DNA of 38,631 nucleotides, taken from positions 1 to 38,631 of IMG/VR virus record IMGVR_UViG_3300033144_001801; one strand, 5' to 3'. Below are positions 11,630-34,118 of the stretch, piece after piece. The stretch is from a virus. The position numbers and the translations under genes were made by a program. How positions within the stretch are numbered: the first letter of the stretch is position 1; the number at the start of each line of letters is the position of its first letter. Below the pieces are notes generated by a model, which worked only from the letters and a program-made list of their open reading frames with translations, ran no database searches and was not told the origin of the DNA.

Positions 11630-12592
11630 ATGGAAGTTACATTTCTGTCAACAAAAAATGACAAGCTCAATGGATATGGGAGGGCTAAGAAAAACCTGAA
11701 GAAATATTGTTCGAGGGTGGGTTTGGAATTAAAAGAGGATGACAAAATAAGGGATTTCGGATTATGTTTTTCTGCACCAGCGAGTATCTTACAACTCAAA
11801 GCAAGGTATAAGGTTCTCTACACTATGTTCGAGACGAATAAGCTCCCAGATCGTTTCACAGAGCCAATTAGCTATGCAGATAAAGTGATTGTCCCTAGTT
11901 ATTTTTGCGGTAATGTGTTTTTCAAGCATGGTATCGAAACAGAAGTTATACAGTTGGGATATGATAGTGACATTTATAAGTATCATGAGAGACCGAAAAG
12001 AAAAGTATTCACATTTTTGCATTATGACTCTTTTACAGTTAGAAAGGGTTGGCACGAGGTGTTTAAGGCATTCAACAAAGCATTCCGAGGTAGAGATGAT
12101 GTAAGGATTATATTCAAAGGAATTGCAGACGGAAGAACAATTCCACCGCTACATAGATACAAAAATATGGAAAGTATCGTAGCTGAATATTCAGATGATG
12201 AGATGTATGCGTTATTGAAAAAAGCTGATTGTTTTGTCTTTCCGAGCAGGGGCGAAGGGTTTGGTATAACTCCTTTGGAAGCTATGGCTTCGGGAATAAC
12301 AGCTATCGTGCCTAATAGACATGGTATAAGCGAGTATTTCGATAAGAAGTGTATGGTTAAGGTGGACAGCAATAGAATTAAAGCGGTCTATGCGCATTAT
12401 AAAAATGAGGATTGTGGCAGAATGTATAAATGTTCTATAAGCGATCTTGCTCGTAAAATGAAATGGGTTGTAGATAATAAGGAGAGAGCAAAAGAGATGG
12501 GCAGGCTAGCTTCGGAACACGCATTTAATTATTCTTATGCCAATACGGCAGAGAAACTAAAGGAGATGTTTAATGACTTGGCTGAAAAATAA
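11630..12592 (+). CDS. glycosyltransferase, GT4-like (GT-B fold)
   Basis: The 320-residue protein has a GT-B C-terminal domain with the donor-binding stretch FVFPSRGEGFGITPLEAMAS at about residues 203-222, which holds the EGFG and E-x7-E pattern of GT4 enzymes, after a Rossmann start VFTFLHYDSFTVRKGW. It transfers a sugar from a nucleotide-sugar donor; donor and acceptor cannot be told. It opens a five-gene cassette inside the head operon, so the acceptor may be a virion protein. ATG 11630 follows AAAAGGAAA. Its end overlaps the next start by 20 bases. Confidence 0.85.
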   Translation: MEVTFLSTKNDKLNGYGRAKKNLKKYCSRVGLELKEDDKIRDFGLCFSAPASILQLKARYKVLYTMFETNKLPDRFTEPISYADKVIVPSYFCGNVFFKHGIETEVIQLGYDSDIYKYHERPKRKVFTFLHYDSFTVRKGWHEVFKAFNKAFRGRDDVRIIFKGIADGRTIPPLHRYKNMESIVAEYSDDEMYALLKKADCFVFPSRGEGFGITPLEAMASGITAIVPNRHGISEYFDKKCMVKVDSNRIKAVYAHYKNEDCGRMYKCSISDLARKMKWVVDNKERAKEMGRLASEHAFNYSYANTAEKLKEMFNDLAEK

Positions 12593-13799
12593 AAACGGAA
12601 AGATGATTGAGTTTGATGAGGCTACTGAGAAAGAGAAGATAAAAAAACATCTCGAAGAGTTTGGATTTGAGATAGTCGATAATAATCAATACAAAAAAGG
12701 GATTAATACTATAAAAAATCCCATAGCGAATAAAAAAATAGCAGTAATAGAGGAAAATTGTAGTTTTTATTCCGGGGGAAGATATAACGGATATCAGTTT
12801 TTATGCGCTTTGGCTGAGTTAGGCGAACTAATGGGATTTGATGTCGAGTATTGGAGCAACAAAGAACCTATATTCAAAAATGATTTTAGTTTATATAAGA
12901 ACATAAATGTAAATATAGTTGACGATTTCAAGAGACATTTTGACGTTTTGGCTGATTTGTATATTAGCTTTCCGACATTCGGCAATGAAAGAGCTATTGA
13001 GTTGGCTGAGAAATATAATAAGCCTGTGATGTGTTATATATTTGACGCCTTGCCTTATATCAAAAAATGCGTGCCTGAGGATTATGCAATGGAAAGAGAA
13101 TATATGCAATCAATGGCTGATAAGATTACTAGTTTCAAAGGAGATATTAAGATATTGACTGTTTCTGAATTAACCAGAGACTATTCCTATAAGTGGTTGA
13201 AAAAAGACAAAAAAGACTTTGAAGTTATATACCCAGTTGTTAATTCAAGGGTGTTGCATTCTGTTCCCGATTATGATCGTAAAGATTGGGTTGTTTATGT
13301 CGGGAGGTTTGTTAATCGTAAAAACTTCAAAGAGAGCTTTAAGGCATTTAGCAAACTACCTGACAAGTGGAGATTACAGATTATCACTAGCTACGCGTAT
13401 CAGGGCGATTTGGAGAAATTATTAGCAGAGATGAGGATTAAAGACAGAGTCGATGTTCATTTCGGAGCTTCGGATTATGAGAAGTTTACTATAATGAAAA
13501 AATCTAAAATGATGATTAACTCTAGTAAGTTCGAGGGTTTCGGAATGTGGTTAATAGAAGCTATGGCTTGCGGTATTCCGGTGGTGTTTTATGAATACCC
13601 TACTGCTAAAGAAATTATCGAGAAGCACCCCGAAGCAGAAAACTATTTTAAGATGGCTAAGTTCGGTGATTATGAGGATTTTGAGAGGATTGTGAAAAAA
13701 GTGAGCAAAATGAGAAAGAAACTACCCCTCAACGATGATTTTGACTTTAGCAGGATTAAAAAAACTATTAGGGACTTGGTGATAAAATGGTTAGCGTAA
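12573..13799 (+). CDS. glycosyltransferase, GT4-like (GT-B fold)
   Basis: The 408-residue protein has a short N-terminal extension (MTWLKNKNGKMIEFDEATEK), then a GT-B glycosyltransferase. The C-terminal donor site is INSSKFEGFGMWLIEAMACG near residues 314-333, followed by IPVVFYEYPTAKEII. The segment DWVVYVGRFVNRKNFKESF is the usual start of the second Rossmann domain. ATG 12573 lies inside the previous gene behind AAGGAGATGTTTA, so the two are coupled. Specificity unknown. The N-terminal 35 residues look like a phage-type small module fused to the enzyme. Confidence 0.85.
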   Translation: MTWLKNKNGKMIEFDEATEKEKIKKHLEEFGFEIVDNNQYKKGINTIKNPIANKKIAVIEENCSFYSGGRYNGYQFLCALAELGELMGFDVEYWSNKEPIFKNDFSLYKNINVNIVDDFKRHFDVLADLYISFPTFGNERAIELAEKYNKPVMCYIFDALPYIKKCVPEDYAMEREYMQSMADKITSFKGDIKILTVSELTRDYSYKWLKKDKKDFEVIYPVVNSRVLHSVPDYDRKDWVVYVGRFVNRKNFKESFKAFSKLPDKWRLQIITSYAYQGDLEKLLAEMRIKDRVDVHFGASDYEKFTIMKKSKMMINSSKFEGFGMWLIEAMACGIPVVFYEYPTAKEIIEKHPEAENYFKMAKFGDYEDFERIVKKVSKMRKKLPLNDDFDFSRIKKTIRDLVIKWLA

Positions 13800-15178
13800 T
13801 TATAAATTGCAAAACCGCAAAAGGTCTCAAAAAGTGCTTAGATAGCGTTTTCAAACAAGATGTGAATAAGGAGGTTATTTTAGTTTTAGATGGTTGCGAT
13901 TACGAAGTCTCGAGTGGTTATGATGTTGATGTTTATAAAGTCAATTTTAACAATGCTAACAAATGCAGGAATTATGGGTTTGCGAAGTCAAAGGGTGAAT
14001 TTATAAAGTTTTTAGATAGTAAAGACGAGCTATTCGATGGATGTTTGCAAGAGGAGGTCAATTTTATATTAAAGTTCGGATTAGATTTTTGTTATTCAAA
14101 ATGTGGAGCGAAAGGCAAGTCAATGATTAACAGATTGGAGTTTTTCAGGACTTCTTTGGAGTTAGAGGACACTATCAGAGGCGGTATGTTGTATCGAAAA
14201 TATGTCGCAATATGGGATGAGGATTTTAGAGATGTCCAAGATTGGGATTTTTGGTTGCAAGTGACTTTAGTCACTGAGTCGGGCAGGTTATTAAATAAAG
14301 AATTATGGAGACATAATAATTATGTTGAAATTAATGAGAAAAAAATAAGAGAGAAGCACGTTATCAGATACAGAGACGCCAAGATTACTTTGTTTACTCC
14401 GTTCAGTAGAGAGTTTTGTATATTGAGGTATTTAGATTGGTTGGATCGGGCTAAGAAAGAAATGAAAACTTGGAATATGGATTTGGTATTTTTGGATAAT
14501 AGCAACAATATATTCGTAAATAGAATTTTGAGGGAGTTTTTAGAAACAGATCAAGAGAATTGGAATAGTGTCAGAATGATTACTATCGATGAAGAAAAGA
14601 TAATGACTACTGTCCAGAAACGATGGAAAGTTATCGCTAGGAATATGAATATTACAGTTGATATGTTGAGAACTCCTTATTATGCAATGATTGAAGATGA
14701 CACTATCCCGGCGTTAGACGCAATACCAAGATTAAAAGATAGACTAGATGATAATATATGGTTTGCTGAGGGCGTAGAGGTCAGTAGATGGAAGTTTAGA
14801 ATGGTTGGGGCTTGGGATATGGATTTAGGCGAAAATGGCGATATACTGCGACACAGGAGCAAACAACTAAGGCACAAAGGTGTAGAAGAAATAAGCGGTG
14901 GGGGGTTTTATTGCTTTGTGTGTGATAGCAGAGTATTTGAGAAAGTTAAATTTGATGGTAGTGGCAGAAGCGCTGTCGCTGGACCAGATGTATTGTTCGC
15001 GTTAGATATTAAAAACAAAGGCAAAAAGGCTGTAATAGATTGGTCGGTTAAATGTGTTCATTTGAATGCAAGGATTGATGGCGATATTGAATTGATAGGA
15101 ACAGACCATGCTATTGTTCAAATTAAAGAAAAAATTAATGGAAAATGGAAAGCGAGGAACGATGACGAGCAGTCCTGA
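13787..15178 (+). CDS. two-domain GT2-like (GT-A fold) glycosyltransferase
   Basis: The first about 190 residues look like a GT2 family domain: VSVIINCKTAKGLKKCLDSV, LVLDGCD, the CRNYGFAKSKGEFIKFLDSKDE region with its acidic metal-binding stretch, and VQDWDFWLQ. The second half (from about residue 205) has a second GT-A-like domain with DLVFLDNSN and AMIEDDTIPA near 303, plus a late HLNAR segment. Two GT-A modules in one chain suggest a bifunctional enzyme that adds two sugars or builds a repeating disaccharide. The start overlaps the previous gene by 13 bases. Confidence 0.75.
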   Translation: MVSVIINCKTAKGLKKCLDSVFKQDVNKEVILVLDGCDYEVSSGYDVDVYKVNFNNANKCRNYGFAKSKGEFIKFLDSKDELFDGCLQEEVNFILKFGLDFCYSKCGAKGKSMINRLEFFRTSLELEDTIRGGMLYRKYVAIWDEDFRDVQDWDFWLQVTLVTESGRLLNKELWRHNNYVEINEKKIREKHVIRYRDAKITLFTPFSREFCILRYLDWLDRAKKEMKTWNMDLVFLDNSNNIFVNRILREFLETDQENWNSVRMITIDEEKIMTTVQKRWKVIARNMNITVDMLRTPYYAMIEDDTIPALDAIPRLKDRLDDNIWFAEGVEVSRWKFRMVGAWDMDLGENGDILRHRSKQLRHKGVEEISGGGFYCFVCDSRVFEKVKFDGSGRSAVAGPDVLFALDIKNKGKKAVIDWSVKCVHLNARIDGDIELIGTDHAIVQIKEKINGKWKARNDDEQS

Positions 15179-32071: not shown

Positions 32072-32145
32072 GTAGTTCTCCCCTAACTACTTCAATCCTC
32101 CCCACATAACTAAAAAAGCTCCGTTCTATCGGGGTTTTTTTAGTT
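32072..32145 (+). ncRNA. candidate small RNA 1 (about 75 bases, P1 to terminator)
   Basis: From the predicted P1 start the transcript opens with a hairpin (GTAGTT 32072-32077 with AACTAC 32085-32090), has a pyrimidine-rich single-stranded linker (TTCAATCCTCCCCACAT), and ends at a strong intrinsic terminator. There is no reading frame in it. The linker and hairpin loop contain CTCCCC, the complement of ribosome-binding GGGGAG. Confidence 0.5.
32108..32145 (+). terminator. bidirectional intrinsic terminator
   Basis: AACTAAAAAAGCTCCG and CGGGGTTTTTTTAGTT form a long hairpin with loop TTCTAT. There is a T-run on the + side and, on the other strand, a T-run from the A-run on the left arm, so it can stop transcription in both directions. 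It follows the late operon and separates it from the control region. Confidence 0.85.
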
Positions 32146-32153
32146 GTGGATAA
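32145..32153 (-). promoter_or_regulatory. perfect DnaA box (TTATCCACA on minus strand)
   Basis: The + strand reads TGTGGATAA, the exact complement of the DnaA-binding consensus TTATCCACA. A second perfect box in the opposite orientation lies at 32445-32453. Two perfect 9-mers in a 300-base noncoding region next to a replication initiator gene suggest host DnaA takes part in phage replication or its control. Confidence 0.65.
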
Positions 32154-32159
32154 GTGGGG

Positions 32160-32188
32160 TTGACAAACAAAAATGCTTTATTTATGAT
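32160..32188 (+). promoter_or_regulatory. promoter P2, TTGACA-17-TATGAT
   Basis: TTGACA (32160-32165), 17-base spacer, TATGAT (32183-32188) is a near-consensus sigma70 promoter. The expected start, about 32195, is the first base of an 18-bp RNA helix. Confidence 0.8.
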
Positions 32189-32194
32189 GTAAAT

Positions 32195-32297
32195 GTAATT
32201 ACGGTTGTGAGGCATATTTTTAATAAAATGAACACTTTTGCAAAAATGTTCGCCCCGAAGCCTTAATGCCTCAACCGTATTACCTTCGGGGCTTTTT
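32195..32297 (+). ncRNA. candidate switch RNA 2 (P2 transcript, crossing helices and terminator)
   Basis: Helix A pairs 32195-32215 with 32266-32283 as 18 base pairs with a single-T bulge and a GT bulge. Helix B pairs GCCCCGAAG (32252-32260) with CTTCGGGGC (32284-32292), followed by TTTTT: an intrinsic terminator. The 3' arm of A lies entirely in the loop of B and abuts B's 3' arm with no gap, so A and B cross and can hardly coexist. Hairpin GAACA/TGTTC (32230-32251) fills the gap. The unit looks like a small RNA or an attenuator for the small membrane protein gene at 32315. Confidence 0.65.
32284..32297 (+). terminator. terminator arm and T-run of unit 2
   Basis: CTTCGGGGC followed by TTTTT is the downstream arm and U-tract of helix B, whose other arm is GCCCCGAAG at 32252-32260. 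Read-through would express the small membrane protein directly downstream. Confidence 0.6.
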
Positions 32298-32314
32298 ATT
32301 AAGAAAGGATAAAA

Positions 32315-32407
32315 ATGACAGGAGTAGAAACAATTGCATTTTACATTTTAGGTAGTGCAACAGCGATACTTGCTATCGCAGTATTGATTGATGTAAGAAC
32401 TAGATAA
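32315..32407 (+). CDS. small single-span membrane protein (30 aa)
   Basis: ATG 32315 follows AAGAAAGGATAAA and encodes MTGVETIAFYILGSATAILA plus IAVLIDVRTR: one hydrophobic membrane span with a short charged C-terminal end. It is the only reading frame between the two DnaA boxes and lies downstream of the unit-2 terminator, so its expression would depend on read-through or anti-termination. Peptides of this size are often phage regulators of membrane or replication functions, or toxins; no evidence chooses among them. Confidence 0.5.
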   Translation: MTGVETIAFYILGSATAILAIAVLIDVRTR

Positions 32408-32444: not shown

Positions 32445-32453
32445 TTATCCACA
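32445..32453 (+). promoter_or_regulatory. perfect DnaA box TTATCCACA
   Basis: Exact match to the DnaA consensus, 11 bases before the -35 of promoter P3 and about 300 bases from the oppositely oriented box at 32145. Binding here could both help open the origin and control the replication gene's promoter. Confidence 0.65.
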
Positions 32454-32463
32454 GATTTGGTGG

Positions 32464-32492
32464 TTGACAACTTAAAAAGATAGATAGATAAT
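32464..32492 (+). promoter_or_regulatory. promoter P3, TTGACA-17-GATAAT
   Basis: TTGACA (32464-32469), 17-base spacer, GATAAT (32487-32492), then GTAAAC. The expected start, about 32499, falls on the first bases of a perfect 12-bp helix arm. It drives the replication gene at 32597. Confidence 0.8.
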
Positions 32493-32497
32493 GTAAA

Positions 32498-32581
32498 CAA
32501 CGGACGGGTTTTTTATATAAAATATACAATTTGAGCTTAAATTAAACCCCATATCGACCCGTCCGTTGATGTGGGGTTTTT
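32498..32581 (+). ncRNA. candidate switch RNA 3 (leader of the replication gene)
   Basis: Helix A is a perfect 12-bp pair, CAACGGACGGGT (32498-32509) with ACCCGTCCGTTG (32557-32568). Helix B pairs 32544-32554 with 32569-32579 (AAACCCCA/TGGGGTTT core), followed by a T-run, forming a terminator. As in unit 2, the 3' arm of A lies in the loop of B and abuts its 3' arm with no gap. If B forms, transcription ends before the replication gene; if A forms first, B is hindered. Confidence 0.65.
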
Positions 32582-32596
32582 GTAAGAGAGGCAAAA

Positions 32597-33337
32597 GTGG
32601 CTAATCCCCAAACAGAAAATGGGCATTTGGATCTAGCAAATGAAATAGTCGAGGTTATGGCAAAAACGCAATTGTCCGGTTATGAGTCAAGAATATTGTG
32701 GGTAGTTTGGAGACGGACTTATTGTTGGCACAAAAAAGAAGAAGTAATAAAATTCAAGCATTTCAGGGAAGCAACAGGAATAGTTGATTCGCATCTGAGC
32801 AGAACCATTAAAAAGTTGGTTGAAAGAAAGATACTTACCAAAAATGGTAACAAGTATTCTTTCCAAAAAGATTACCAAAAATGGCAACTAGAGTTACCAA
32901 AAATGGTAAGTCGAGTTACCAAAAATGGTAACAACACTTACCAAAAAAGGTCTTCTGTAGCCTCGACTAAAGAAACTATTAAAAGAAACTTATTAAAAGA
33001 AACTATTAAAAGAAAGGGAACTAAAGTTCCCCGGGAGTATGGGAATAAAGATATAAACAAATTATTCAAATGTTTTACTTCTAAGGGAATAAGTTTAACT
33101 AAACAAAAACTTAATAGATATGCTGGACAACGCTTGATTAAAAAGTATGGATTAGAGAAGTGTGTGTCGGCGATTGAATATGCTTTGTCGATTCAAGGTG
33201 AGCAATACGCACCGCAGATACTCAACTTACTAGATTTAGAAGAAAAAATGTCTAAACTAATTATTTATAAAAAGAGAGGTGAAAATGGGAGAAATACAAT
33301 CGAAGTCGAAGGAAAGCGAATATCAAATAGTTTTTAA
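32597..33337 (+). CDS. replication initiator, phage-lambda-O-like with winged-helix N-terminus
   Basis: The N-terminal 90 residues match the phage O replication-protein family: ENGHLDLANEIVEVMAKTQL SGYESRILWVVWRRTYCWHKKEEVIKFKHFREATGIVDSHLSRTIKKLV (a winged helix-turn-helix that binds origin repeats). The following linker (residues about 80-140) is encoded by DNA packed with iterons, and the C-terminus (about 150-220, KGISLTKQKLNRYAGQRLIK) is a helical domain that may recruit the host helicase or loader. No phage helicase is seen, so it relies on the host's. The start is GTG 32597 after AAGAGAGGCAAAA. The terminator of unit 3 ends 15 bases upstream. Confidence 0.82.
   Translation: MANPQTENGHLDLANEIVEVMAKTQLSGYESRILWVVWRRTYCWHKKEEVIKFKHFREATGIVDSHLSRTIKKLVERKILTKNGNKYSFQKDYQKWQLELPKMVSRVTKNGNNTYQKRSSVASTKETIKRNLLKETIKRKGTKVPREYGNKDINKLFKCFTSKGISLTKQKLNRYAGQRLIKKYGLEKCVSAIEYALSIQGEQYAPQILNLLDLEEKMSKLIIYKKRGENGRNTIEVEGKRISNSF
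32835..32953 (+). repeat. origin iterons: five palindromic copies of TTACCAAAAATGGTAA
   Basis: Copies start at 32835, 32872, 32894, 32916 and 32938; the last four are spaced exactly 22 bases apart, about two helical turns. The unit is TTACCA-AAAA-TGGTAA, an inverted repeat; copies 2 and 5 carry changes. Because 22 is not a multiple of three, the copies are read in different frames and give different peptides (TKNGN, QKWQ, PKMVS, TKNGN, QKRS), so conservation is at the DNA level. Placement inside the initiator gene follows lambda O and its origin. Confidence 0.88.
32964..33017 (+). repeat. A+T-rich direct repeats, probable DNA-unwinding element
   Basis: Three tandem copies of ATTAAAAGAAA(CT) follow the iterons by about 20 bases inside the same gene, giving a purine-rich, A+T-rich stretch. 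This is the position and composition of the unwinding element beside the iterons in lambda-type origins. Confidence 0.7.
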
Positions 33338-33701
33338 TGATGGTTCGAGGTTTGTCGTATCAGAAACTTTTGCTCACCAGATTGATGATGTTTGGACAAA
33401 CGATCGAGATGGGCTGATAATTATTGGCGGTGGCAAAAAAAGAGCGAAGGATATAAAATCTATTGATCCTTACAAAGATGATGGCTTCCAAAAACAATCA
33501 GAAGCCACAATGCAACGACTAGAGGCGATGGCCGAGAACTCAAAAAGCACAACTCCACTAGGTCAGAAAAGAAAAGAGATAGCAATTCAAAAAATGAGAG
33601 AAAATTTTGAACGATTAAAAAAAGGTGAAAAATGGCAATTCCACGACATAGACGGAAACCCTTGCACCCAAGAAGAAGCAAAATCAAGCATTATTCATTA
33701 A
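33285..33701 (+). CDS. hypothetical protein (138 aa)
   Basis: ATG 33285 follows AAGAGAGGTGAAA and lies inside the end of the replication gene; a GTG at 33279 is the alternative. Residues 10-50 form a small beta domain (YQIVFNDGSRFVVSETFAHQ), and the rest is a charged helix (EATMQRLEAMAENSKSTTPL...). Its place after the initiator is where helicase-loader genes lie in lambda-like phages, but no ATPase motif is seen, so that role is not supported. It ends SIIH before a good ribosome site. Confidence 0.6.
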   Translation: MGEIQSKSKESEYQIVFNDGSRFVVSETFAHQIDDVWTNDRDGLIIIGGGKKRAKDIKSIDPYKDDGFQKQSEATMQRLEAMAENSKSTTPLGQKRKEIAIQKMRENFERLKKGEKWQFHDIDGNPCTQEEAKSSIIH

Positions 33702-33714
33702 TCAAGGAGAAAAA

Positions 33715-33912
33715 ATGAAACTTATTGATTGGGCGAACAAAAAAAAGGCTGAGAGAATGTGTCCGAAATGCAATGTTAGAGATATCTTCATCAGAGGTGG
33801 GATGAAAAGATACAAATGTCAGAATTGTGGTTATTATTTTGATAATCCGGAATGGGAGAAAGAGGACAATAAATTTAACAAAAAAAAGGTGATAATTAAG
33901 GAGGCAGAATGA
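33715..33912 (+). CDS. zinc-ribbon protein (65 aa)
   Basis: MKLIDWANKKKAERMCPKCN has CPKC at 16-19 and CQNCG at 37-41, giving a four-cysteine zinc ribbon like the N-terminus of InsA-type transposases and some transcription factors, with a basic tail. A small DNA- or RNA-binding regulator is likely. ATG 33715 follows ATCAAGGAGAAAAA and its stop overlaps the next ATG by four bases. Confidence 0.75.
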   Translation: MKLIDWANKKKAERMCPKCNVRDIFIRGGMKRYKCQNCGYYFDNPEWEKEDNKFNKKKVIIKEAE

Positions 33913-34094
33913 TAGATTTTGCATTATTAAACAGGGAGCAGAGAGAGATCATCGTCAATGATTGGGTTAAAAGTGGGGCATACAGGCAGAAAAAAGATAA
34001 ATTCAAAAAGATATTAAGCAATTTATTGACTTGCAGACTAAGTAATGAGGAGTTAGACAGATATATGGAATTATTAGTTGAAATAAAGTGTTGA
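33909..34094 (+). CDS. small hypothetical protein (61 aa)
   Basis: MIDFALLNREQREIIVNDWV is a small helical protein (61 residues) ending LLVEIKC. It overlaps the previous stop (ATGA) and follows AAGGAGGCAGA, a strong site. Its stop TGA lies inside the -35 hexamer of promoter P4. No family recognised. Confidence 0.55.
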   Translation: MIDFALLNREQREIIVNDWVKSGAYRQKKDKFKKILSNLLTCRLSNEELDRYMELLVEIKC

Positions 34095-34118
34095 CAAATG
34101 TTTCAGATAGTATATAAT
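34091..34118 (+). promoter_or_regulatory. promoter P4, TTGACA-16-TATAAT
   Basis: Both hexamers match consensus exactly, with a 16-base spacer (34091-34096 and 34113-34118). It would transcribe the regulator gene at 34208 and the recombination genes after it. The leader from about 34125 to 34207 is untranslated and partly folded. Confidence 0.88.

Follow-up and report, generated by a model that had tools for sequence, protein, structure and literature searches.

Results

Repeats within the initiator gene

The DNA analysed here (the window) is the whole 38,631-nucleotide (nt) stretch of IMG/VR virus record IMGVR_UViG_3300033144_001801, and our subject is a putative replication origin within its gene for an initiator related to the O protein of phage lambda (Table 1). 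An earlier note, made from the sequence alone, had described five 16-base iterons inside this O-like gene, the last four at exact 22-base steps, followed by an A+T-rich triple repeat. Both sets of repeats are present, with steps of 37, 22, 22 and 22 nt between iteron starts. The note described each iteron as an inverted repeat; this is true of four copies, in which six of six (copies 1, 3 and 4) or five of six (copy 2) arm positions pair, but not of copy 5, with three of six.

Phage_rep_O (PF04492) was matched by 41 of 41 aligned O proteins, and PHROG profiles of several O-like families matched the initiator reading frame, as did a DnaD-like helicase loader profile, over residues 1-186 in the case of the latter. 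An AlphaFold2 model computed from the alignment of these 41 proteins has a confident winged-helix domain, its wing formed by strands 80-83 and 86-89. A low-confidence stretch follows (residues ~100-149), a linker that holds most of the origin and is probably disordered, and the helical C-terminal domain is a candidate for the helicase-recruiting part. Foldseek searches with the model returned weak winged-helix matches alone, those of CRP/FNR type among others; a sequence search of PDB chains with the O profile found no match.

The iterons start in codon phases 1, 2, 0, 1 and 2, confirming that the same word is read in all frames. The exact word occurs three times in the gene and at most once in any of 5000 protein-preserving synonymous-codon shuffles, indicating that codons are chosen to suit the DNA word. 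Counted at up to three mismatches, the five copies (shuffle mean 3.0, maximum 5) are unexceptional alone because the linker peptide repeats TKNGN. Such repetition could be read as protein-level selection for a repeated linker peptide, and iterons 1 and 4 do both code for TKNGN. Against this stand the copies in all three frames, an exact-copy count exceeding every shuffle and, among related genes, 112 of 221 array copies out of frame with the wing copy described below. We regard a peptide origin of the repeats as exceedingly improbable; at sequence level the array and its palindromes reflect selection on the DNA rather than on the protein, as the earlier note had argued.

In origins of the lambda O type the gene contains four or more palindromic iterons, each ~16-20 bp long and placed at steps of 20-24 nt, with an A+T-rich element immediately 3' of them. 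The window has four good palindromes (one detached by 37 nt), a degenerate fifth and, by sequence, such an element in that position. As in the lambda origin, the palindromic iterons lie in the linker of a winged-helix O protein and the A+T-rich element, which carries the same word (ACAAAAGACACTATTACAAAAGAAA in lambda), lies on the same side of them; the lambda element ACACAAAAGACACTATTACAAAAGAAA and the annotated lambda iterons are laid out as in the window. Lambda differs in having four iterons, no wing copy and another iteron word, in the presence of gene P next to O (none was recognised in the window) and in transcription from pR. Origins of Stx phages with six iterons (PMC7466680) likewise exceed lambda's four, but their extra iterons are described as further array members whereas the extra one here lies in wing codons. 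Iteron plasmid origins share an iteron array, an A+T-rich element and nearby DnaA boxes; they are defined by non-palindromic direct repeats to which Rep monomers bind, the rep gene lying beside the array, whereas the iterons of the window are inverted repeats within the initiator gene. The Phage_rep_O match, the shared anatomy of the annotated lambda origin and the presence in most relatives of their own versions in the same place all support the lambda-type reading put forward in the earlier note. A switch of GC skew near 32.9 kb, which the note had proposed as a check, was not seen: skew stays above zero across all 1-kb bins, with its minimum (0.09) at 32-33 kb. As it is positive throughout and the recognised genes all lie on the plus strand, skew cannot locate an origin here.

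An iteron in the wing codons of related initiators

Relatives were sampled from several hundred O loci, with 80 matches listed per scan and genes collected by similarity to this family. Most of the 13 first relatives, and then most of 84 genes, carry an iteron array of their own at the corresponding place in the gene, in many cases with a different word and commonly at steps of ~18-24 nt. Array copy number was above all 40 synonymous shuffles in 44 of the 84, and about two dozen array words are clearly different from one another.

We defined each array word solely from gene nt 285-470 and then sought it at nt 205-270, the wing codons. Among the 76 representatives of the first set the wing matched the gene's own word at 11.05 of 14 positions, compared with 8.45 for the words of other genes, a value that none of 10,000 permutations reached. 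Of 39 further genes, less than 65% identical to the first set and to each other, 22 had a wing copy. When the independent genes were pooled, the array word was present in the wing codons at 12/14 or better in 53 of 99 (54%); the controls were cross-gene words (3.9%), composition-permuted words (0.2%), reversed words (0%) and nt 0-195 of these genes (0.7%). The recurrence of each gene's own word in its wing is thus a property of these sequences.

By position, these matches peak sharply at nt 210-270. Across 60 independent genes, 10-27% had a match of at least 12/14 in each 15-nt bin between nt 210 and 255, compared with 1 of 840 bins upstream of nt 210 and a rate of 0.1% after nt 495. The detached copy lies mostly in one of two turns, either the wing itself (nt ~232-254) or the end of the recognition helix and the turn that follows it (nt ~214-230), and is separated from the first array copy by 68 or 69 nt in 26 of the 53 genes.

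It could be proposed that the wing match is a relic, arrays having been duplicated from wing DNA and the wing copy having no function as a site; a wing origin of the word would account for the shared letters. However, identity between wing and array drops to ~0.3 outside the word, the same background as between array copies, and a match that ends at the edge of the word makes recent duplication unlikely. Moreover, the match between wing and array persists among relatives even as the words diversify. A comparison of 549 related pairs whose words differ, taken without selection for a wing match, showed the wing to be closer to its own word in 526 pairs, equally close to both words in 13 and less close to its own in 10; these pairs share members, and 526/549 is therefore not a probability. 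(An earlier count of 578/584 was partly circular, the genes having been picked for a wing match, and is replaced by this unconditional one.) Given the amino acids encoded, codon choice in the wing also favours the word (combined p 3e-17, with 24 of 60 genes below 0.05 and p 0.004 for the window). We conclude from these patterns that wing copy and array are maintained jointly, and we consider the relic explanation unlikely; O would presumably bind the wing copy.

A more serious alternative is that the origin is an ordinary one of lambda type, with iteron 1 as the outermost member of the array and its place in the wing meaning only that there was room in the gene. The lambda-like anatomy is consistent with this, the 37-nt step keeps iteron 1 of the window near the array, and the position itself may still reflect what the protein tolerates. 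In relatives, however, the location of the detached copy is confined to the wing or the preceding turn, most often 68-69 nt from the array, and the peak is sharp with nothing upstream. We regard this alternative as possible, though less probable than a site tied to the wing.

Several observations do weigh against a specific role for the wing position. The step of the window differs from the distance commonest in relatives. Half of the relatives lack a wing copy, as do all nine cultured or named O-type origins with an array (lambda, phi80, CBP1, IPK, Jimmer2, GBK2, phiARM81mr, Ab1656-2 and an Arsenophonus plasmid element); hence O-type origins as a class can do without a wing copy. By the array test used, Mimir87, YPHTV-1, SDFMU_Pfc and Spoks had no array. 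The trait is scattered on the tree (22 changes compared with 32.6 in shuffles), but that tree is poorly resolved and the gene pairs are not fully independent. The sample was, in addition, gathered through similarity to this family. Among the records examined, the wing variant was confined to IMG/VR virus contigs and a single metagenome-assembled contig (L138), which is filed under Planctomycetota. A scan of genome contigs, tried as a host indicator, gave three loci (the Planctomycetota metagenome-assembled genome, Peribacillus and Cohnella), which do not settle the host.

The A+T-rich element

The element that follows the iterons, a candidate for the site of unwinding, is 78% A+T compared with 64% for the window. 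Its middle unit is displaced by one base and is hence in a different reading frame. For duplex weakness the element ranks 125th of 38,581 50-nt windows (the weakest 0.4%), the weakest of all being at 34096.

Its word, ACAAAAGAAACTATT, is common to lambda and most relatives regardless of the iteron. A DNA-only scan of viral contigs for AAAAGANACTATTN{0,3}AAAAGANA placed 65 of the 80 matches listed in Phage_rep_O genes, many of them in lambdoid prophages that are nearly identical; of the 80 matches listed for a control pattern, reversed and less specific by one base, none lay in such genes. Among the 99 independent genes the word (at least 12/15) was found within 90 nt after the array in 69%, compared with 0.5% of other windows. 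A synonymous-shuffle test in all frames was weak and was set aside, as the peptide TKETITKE with A-rich codons yields the word unaided. Copies out of frame are decisive because in-frame copies could be kept by the peptide: such copies (at least 13/15) were present in 15 of these genes, with a shuffle mean of 3.5 and a maximum of 7. The word is thus conserved as DNA.

This conservation bears on whether the iterons are instead operators, at which O would bind within its own gene, block transcription and limit O synthesis, the origin being elsewhere or secondary. The sites are intragenic and downstream of a promoter, and autoregulation by initiators is common. Operators, however, need no A+T-rich word of the kind that follows the array in so many relatives and that corresponds to the A+T-rich region of lambda. 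A purely regulatory function is therefore improbable.

That one word accompanies differing iterons, including those of lambda, suggests that a shared factor reads the melted strand. The O protein of lambda is reported to bind single strands of the lambda A+T-rich region (PMC7466680), and DnaD of B. subtilis reads TnnT pairs in one strand of oriC (PMC10201434); either could serve as a model. The DnaA-trio or DnaD element of the Bacillus oriC (PMC10201434) is likewise a repeated single-strand word adjoining duplex-binding sites, but the word is another one and the element of the window has no adjacent DnaA boxes. The DnaD-like profile match of the initiator may link the two systems.

Leaders and neighbouring genes

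Two leaders of the same architecture precede the initiator gene, each with a sigma-70-like promoter and an upstream DnaA box. The box TTATCCACA is present in 5 of 96 O leaders and in 4 of 787 control windows. In folding predictions for the O leader, transcripts with 3' ends at 32566-32574 favour pairing of A with A' (-17.4 to -21.7 kcal/mol) and those reaching 32578 or beyond favour the terminator (-22.9), so that the predicted fold contains an alternative pairing that would prevent the leader terminator, as in pT181-type control; a consensus scan for an antisense promoter found no minus-strand promoter-like site at 32494-32600. The order A-B-A'-B', with unrelated sequence, occurs before 19 of 96 independent O genes (1.4% in shuffles, 1.7% in other windows), and a T-run follows the hairpin in at least nine of the 19. 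An A arm of at least 12 nt is also found at the related loci L180, L183, L205 and L220. Judged by this arrangement, the O leader looks like a transcription attenuator of the initiator.

Attenuator-like leaders were also noted upstream of O in L144, L154, L180, L181, L183, L205, L220 and others. In L183 and L220, 110 nt upstream of O, the order is X-A-X'-T-run-A'-X, a short element and its complement occurring three times. The terminator of the first leader in the window precedes a reading frame of 30 amino acids at 32315-32407.

Elsewhere in this 38.6-kb virus record, terminase, portal, major head, tape measure and endolysin genes were recognised, and a YqaJ-type exonuclease gene lies downstream of O. 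Next to O, where an origin of the lambda O type would have a gene for the helicase loader P or a phage helicase, the scan covered 33279-33698, with no Pfam or PHROG match, and 33715-33909, with a match to an unknown family only. A perfect sigma-70 consensus promoter (12/12, 16-nt spacer) at 34091-34118 overlaps the weakest duplex of the window. The gene at 4811-5971 matches DNA methyltransferases, its N-terminal part matching ParB-like PHROG families, and within the head-tail module (12573-15178) are one glycosyltransferase-like and one weakly GtrB-like gene. Rfam and tRNA searches of the window found no match and no tRNA, respectively.

Table 1. Features of the initiator gene and its upstream region, in window coordinates
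Feature	Position	Strand	Description
DnaA box	32145-32153	-	Perfect; upstream of first promoter
Sigma-70-like promoter, first leader	32160-32188	+	TTGACA-17-TATGAT, 11/12 consensus
First leader RNA	32200-32300	+	Same architecture as O leader; A 32200-32215, A' 32266-32279, terminator ~32252-32295
DnaA box	32445-32453	+	Perfect, TTATCCACA; upstream of O promoter
Sigma-70-like promoter, O leader	32464-32492	+	TTGACA-17-GATAAT, 11/12 consensus
O leader attenuator-like RNA	32498-32583	+	A 32498-32509; B/B' hairpin ~32544-32579 with A' 32557-32568 in loop; then T-run
Phage_rep_O initiator gene	32597-33337	+	GTG start, 246 amino acids; PF04492 E=1.8e-21; PHROG O-like
Iteron 1, detached, in wing	32835-32850	+	Exact TTACCAAAAATGGTAA; codes LTKNGN, residues 80-85 of wing hairpin
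Iteron 2	32872-32887	+	One mismatch; residues 92-97, end of winged-helix domain
Iteron 3	32894-32909	+	Exact TTACCAAAAATGGTAA; in low-confidence linker
Iteron 4	32916-32931	+	Exact TTACCAAAAATGGTAA; in low-confidence linker
Iteron 5, degenerate	32938-32953	+	TTACCAAAAAAGGTCT, three mismatches, left half conserved; in linker
A+T-rich candidate unwinding element	32964-33017	+	Triplicate at 32966-33007; units ACTAAAGAAACTATT (32966), TTAAAAGAAACTTAT (32979), TTAAAAGAAACTATT (32993)
C-terminal helical domain, residues 150-230	33044-33286	+	AlphaFold2 helices

Discussion

Our results suggest, with a probability of roughly 0.8, that the initiator gene of this virus contains an origin of the lambda O type, in a variant form with an extra, detached iteron in the codons for the wing of the winged-helix domain. 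On the sequence evidence no other reading comes close to that of a lambda-type origin, which is a known kind; the novelty is the wing iteron. What the present analysis would add to the earlier note is that a site in the wing codons is widespread in relatives, that the A+T-rich word is conserved across differing iterons and that the leader appears to be structured. In the openly searchable literature on origins, iterons and attenuation, no title or abstract among the papers listed reported a wing iteron or a shared A+T-rich word, subscription literature being outside the scope of that search.

The mechanism that we infer, which includes use of the wing iteron, runs from binding through melting to helicase recruitment. 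Dimers of O would bind the palindromic iterons of the array together with the wing iteron, forming an O-some, and the resulting strain would melt the adjacent A+T-rich repeat. The melted strands may then be held by a factor that is independent of the iteron, which could be the single-strand binding of O itself, the C-terminal domain of O or the host helicase, after which the C-terminal domain of O would help to bring in the host helicase.

A site located in wing codons means that some changes alter the site and the protein together. Such joint change would keep the initiator and its site matched during gene transfer or divergence. We cautiously favour, with limited confidence, a broader picture in which a large and mostly uncultured group of O-type phages carries an initiator site in its own wing codons that changes with the array and thereby links site and reader physically, shares an unwinding word across the group and controls the initiator through a leader attenuator whose architecture is conserved while its sequence is free.

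How the specificities of an initiator and its origin change together is an old question for iteron replicons. The roughly two dozen array words described here, matched in the wing codons of many of the phages, provide a natural series of initiator-site pairs in which the matching of initiator and site is open to test by synonymous mutations.
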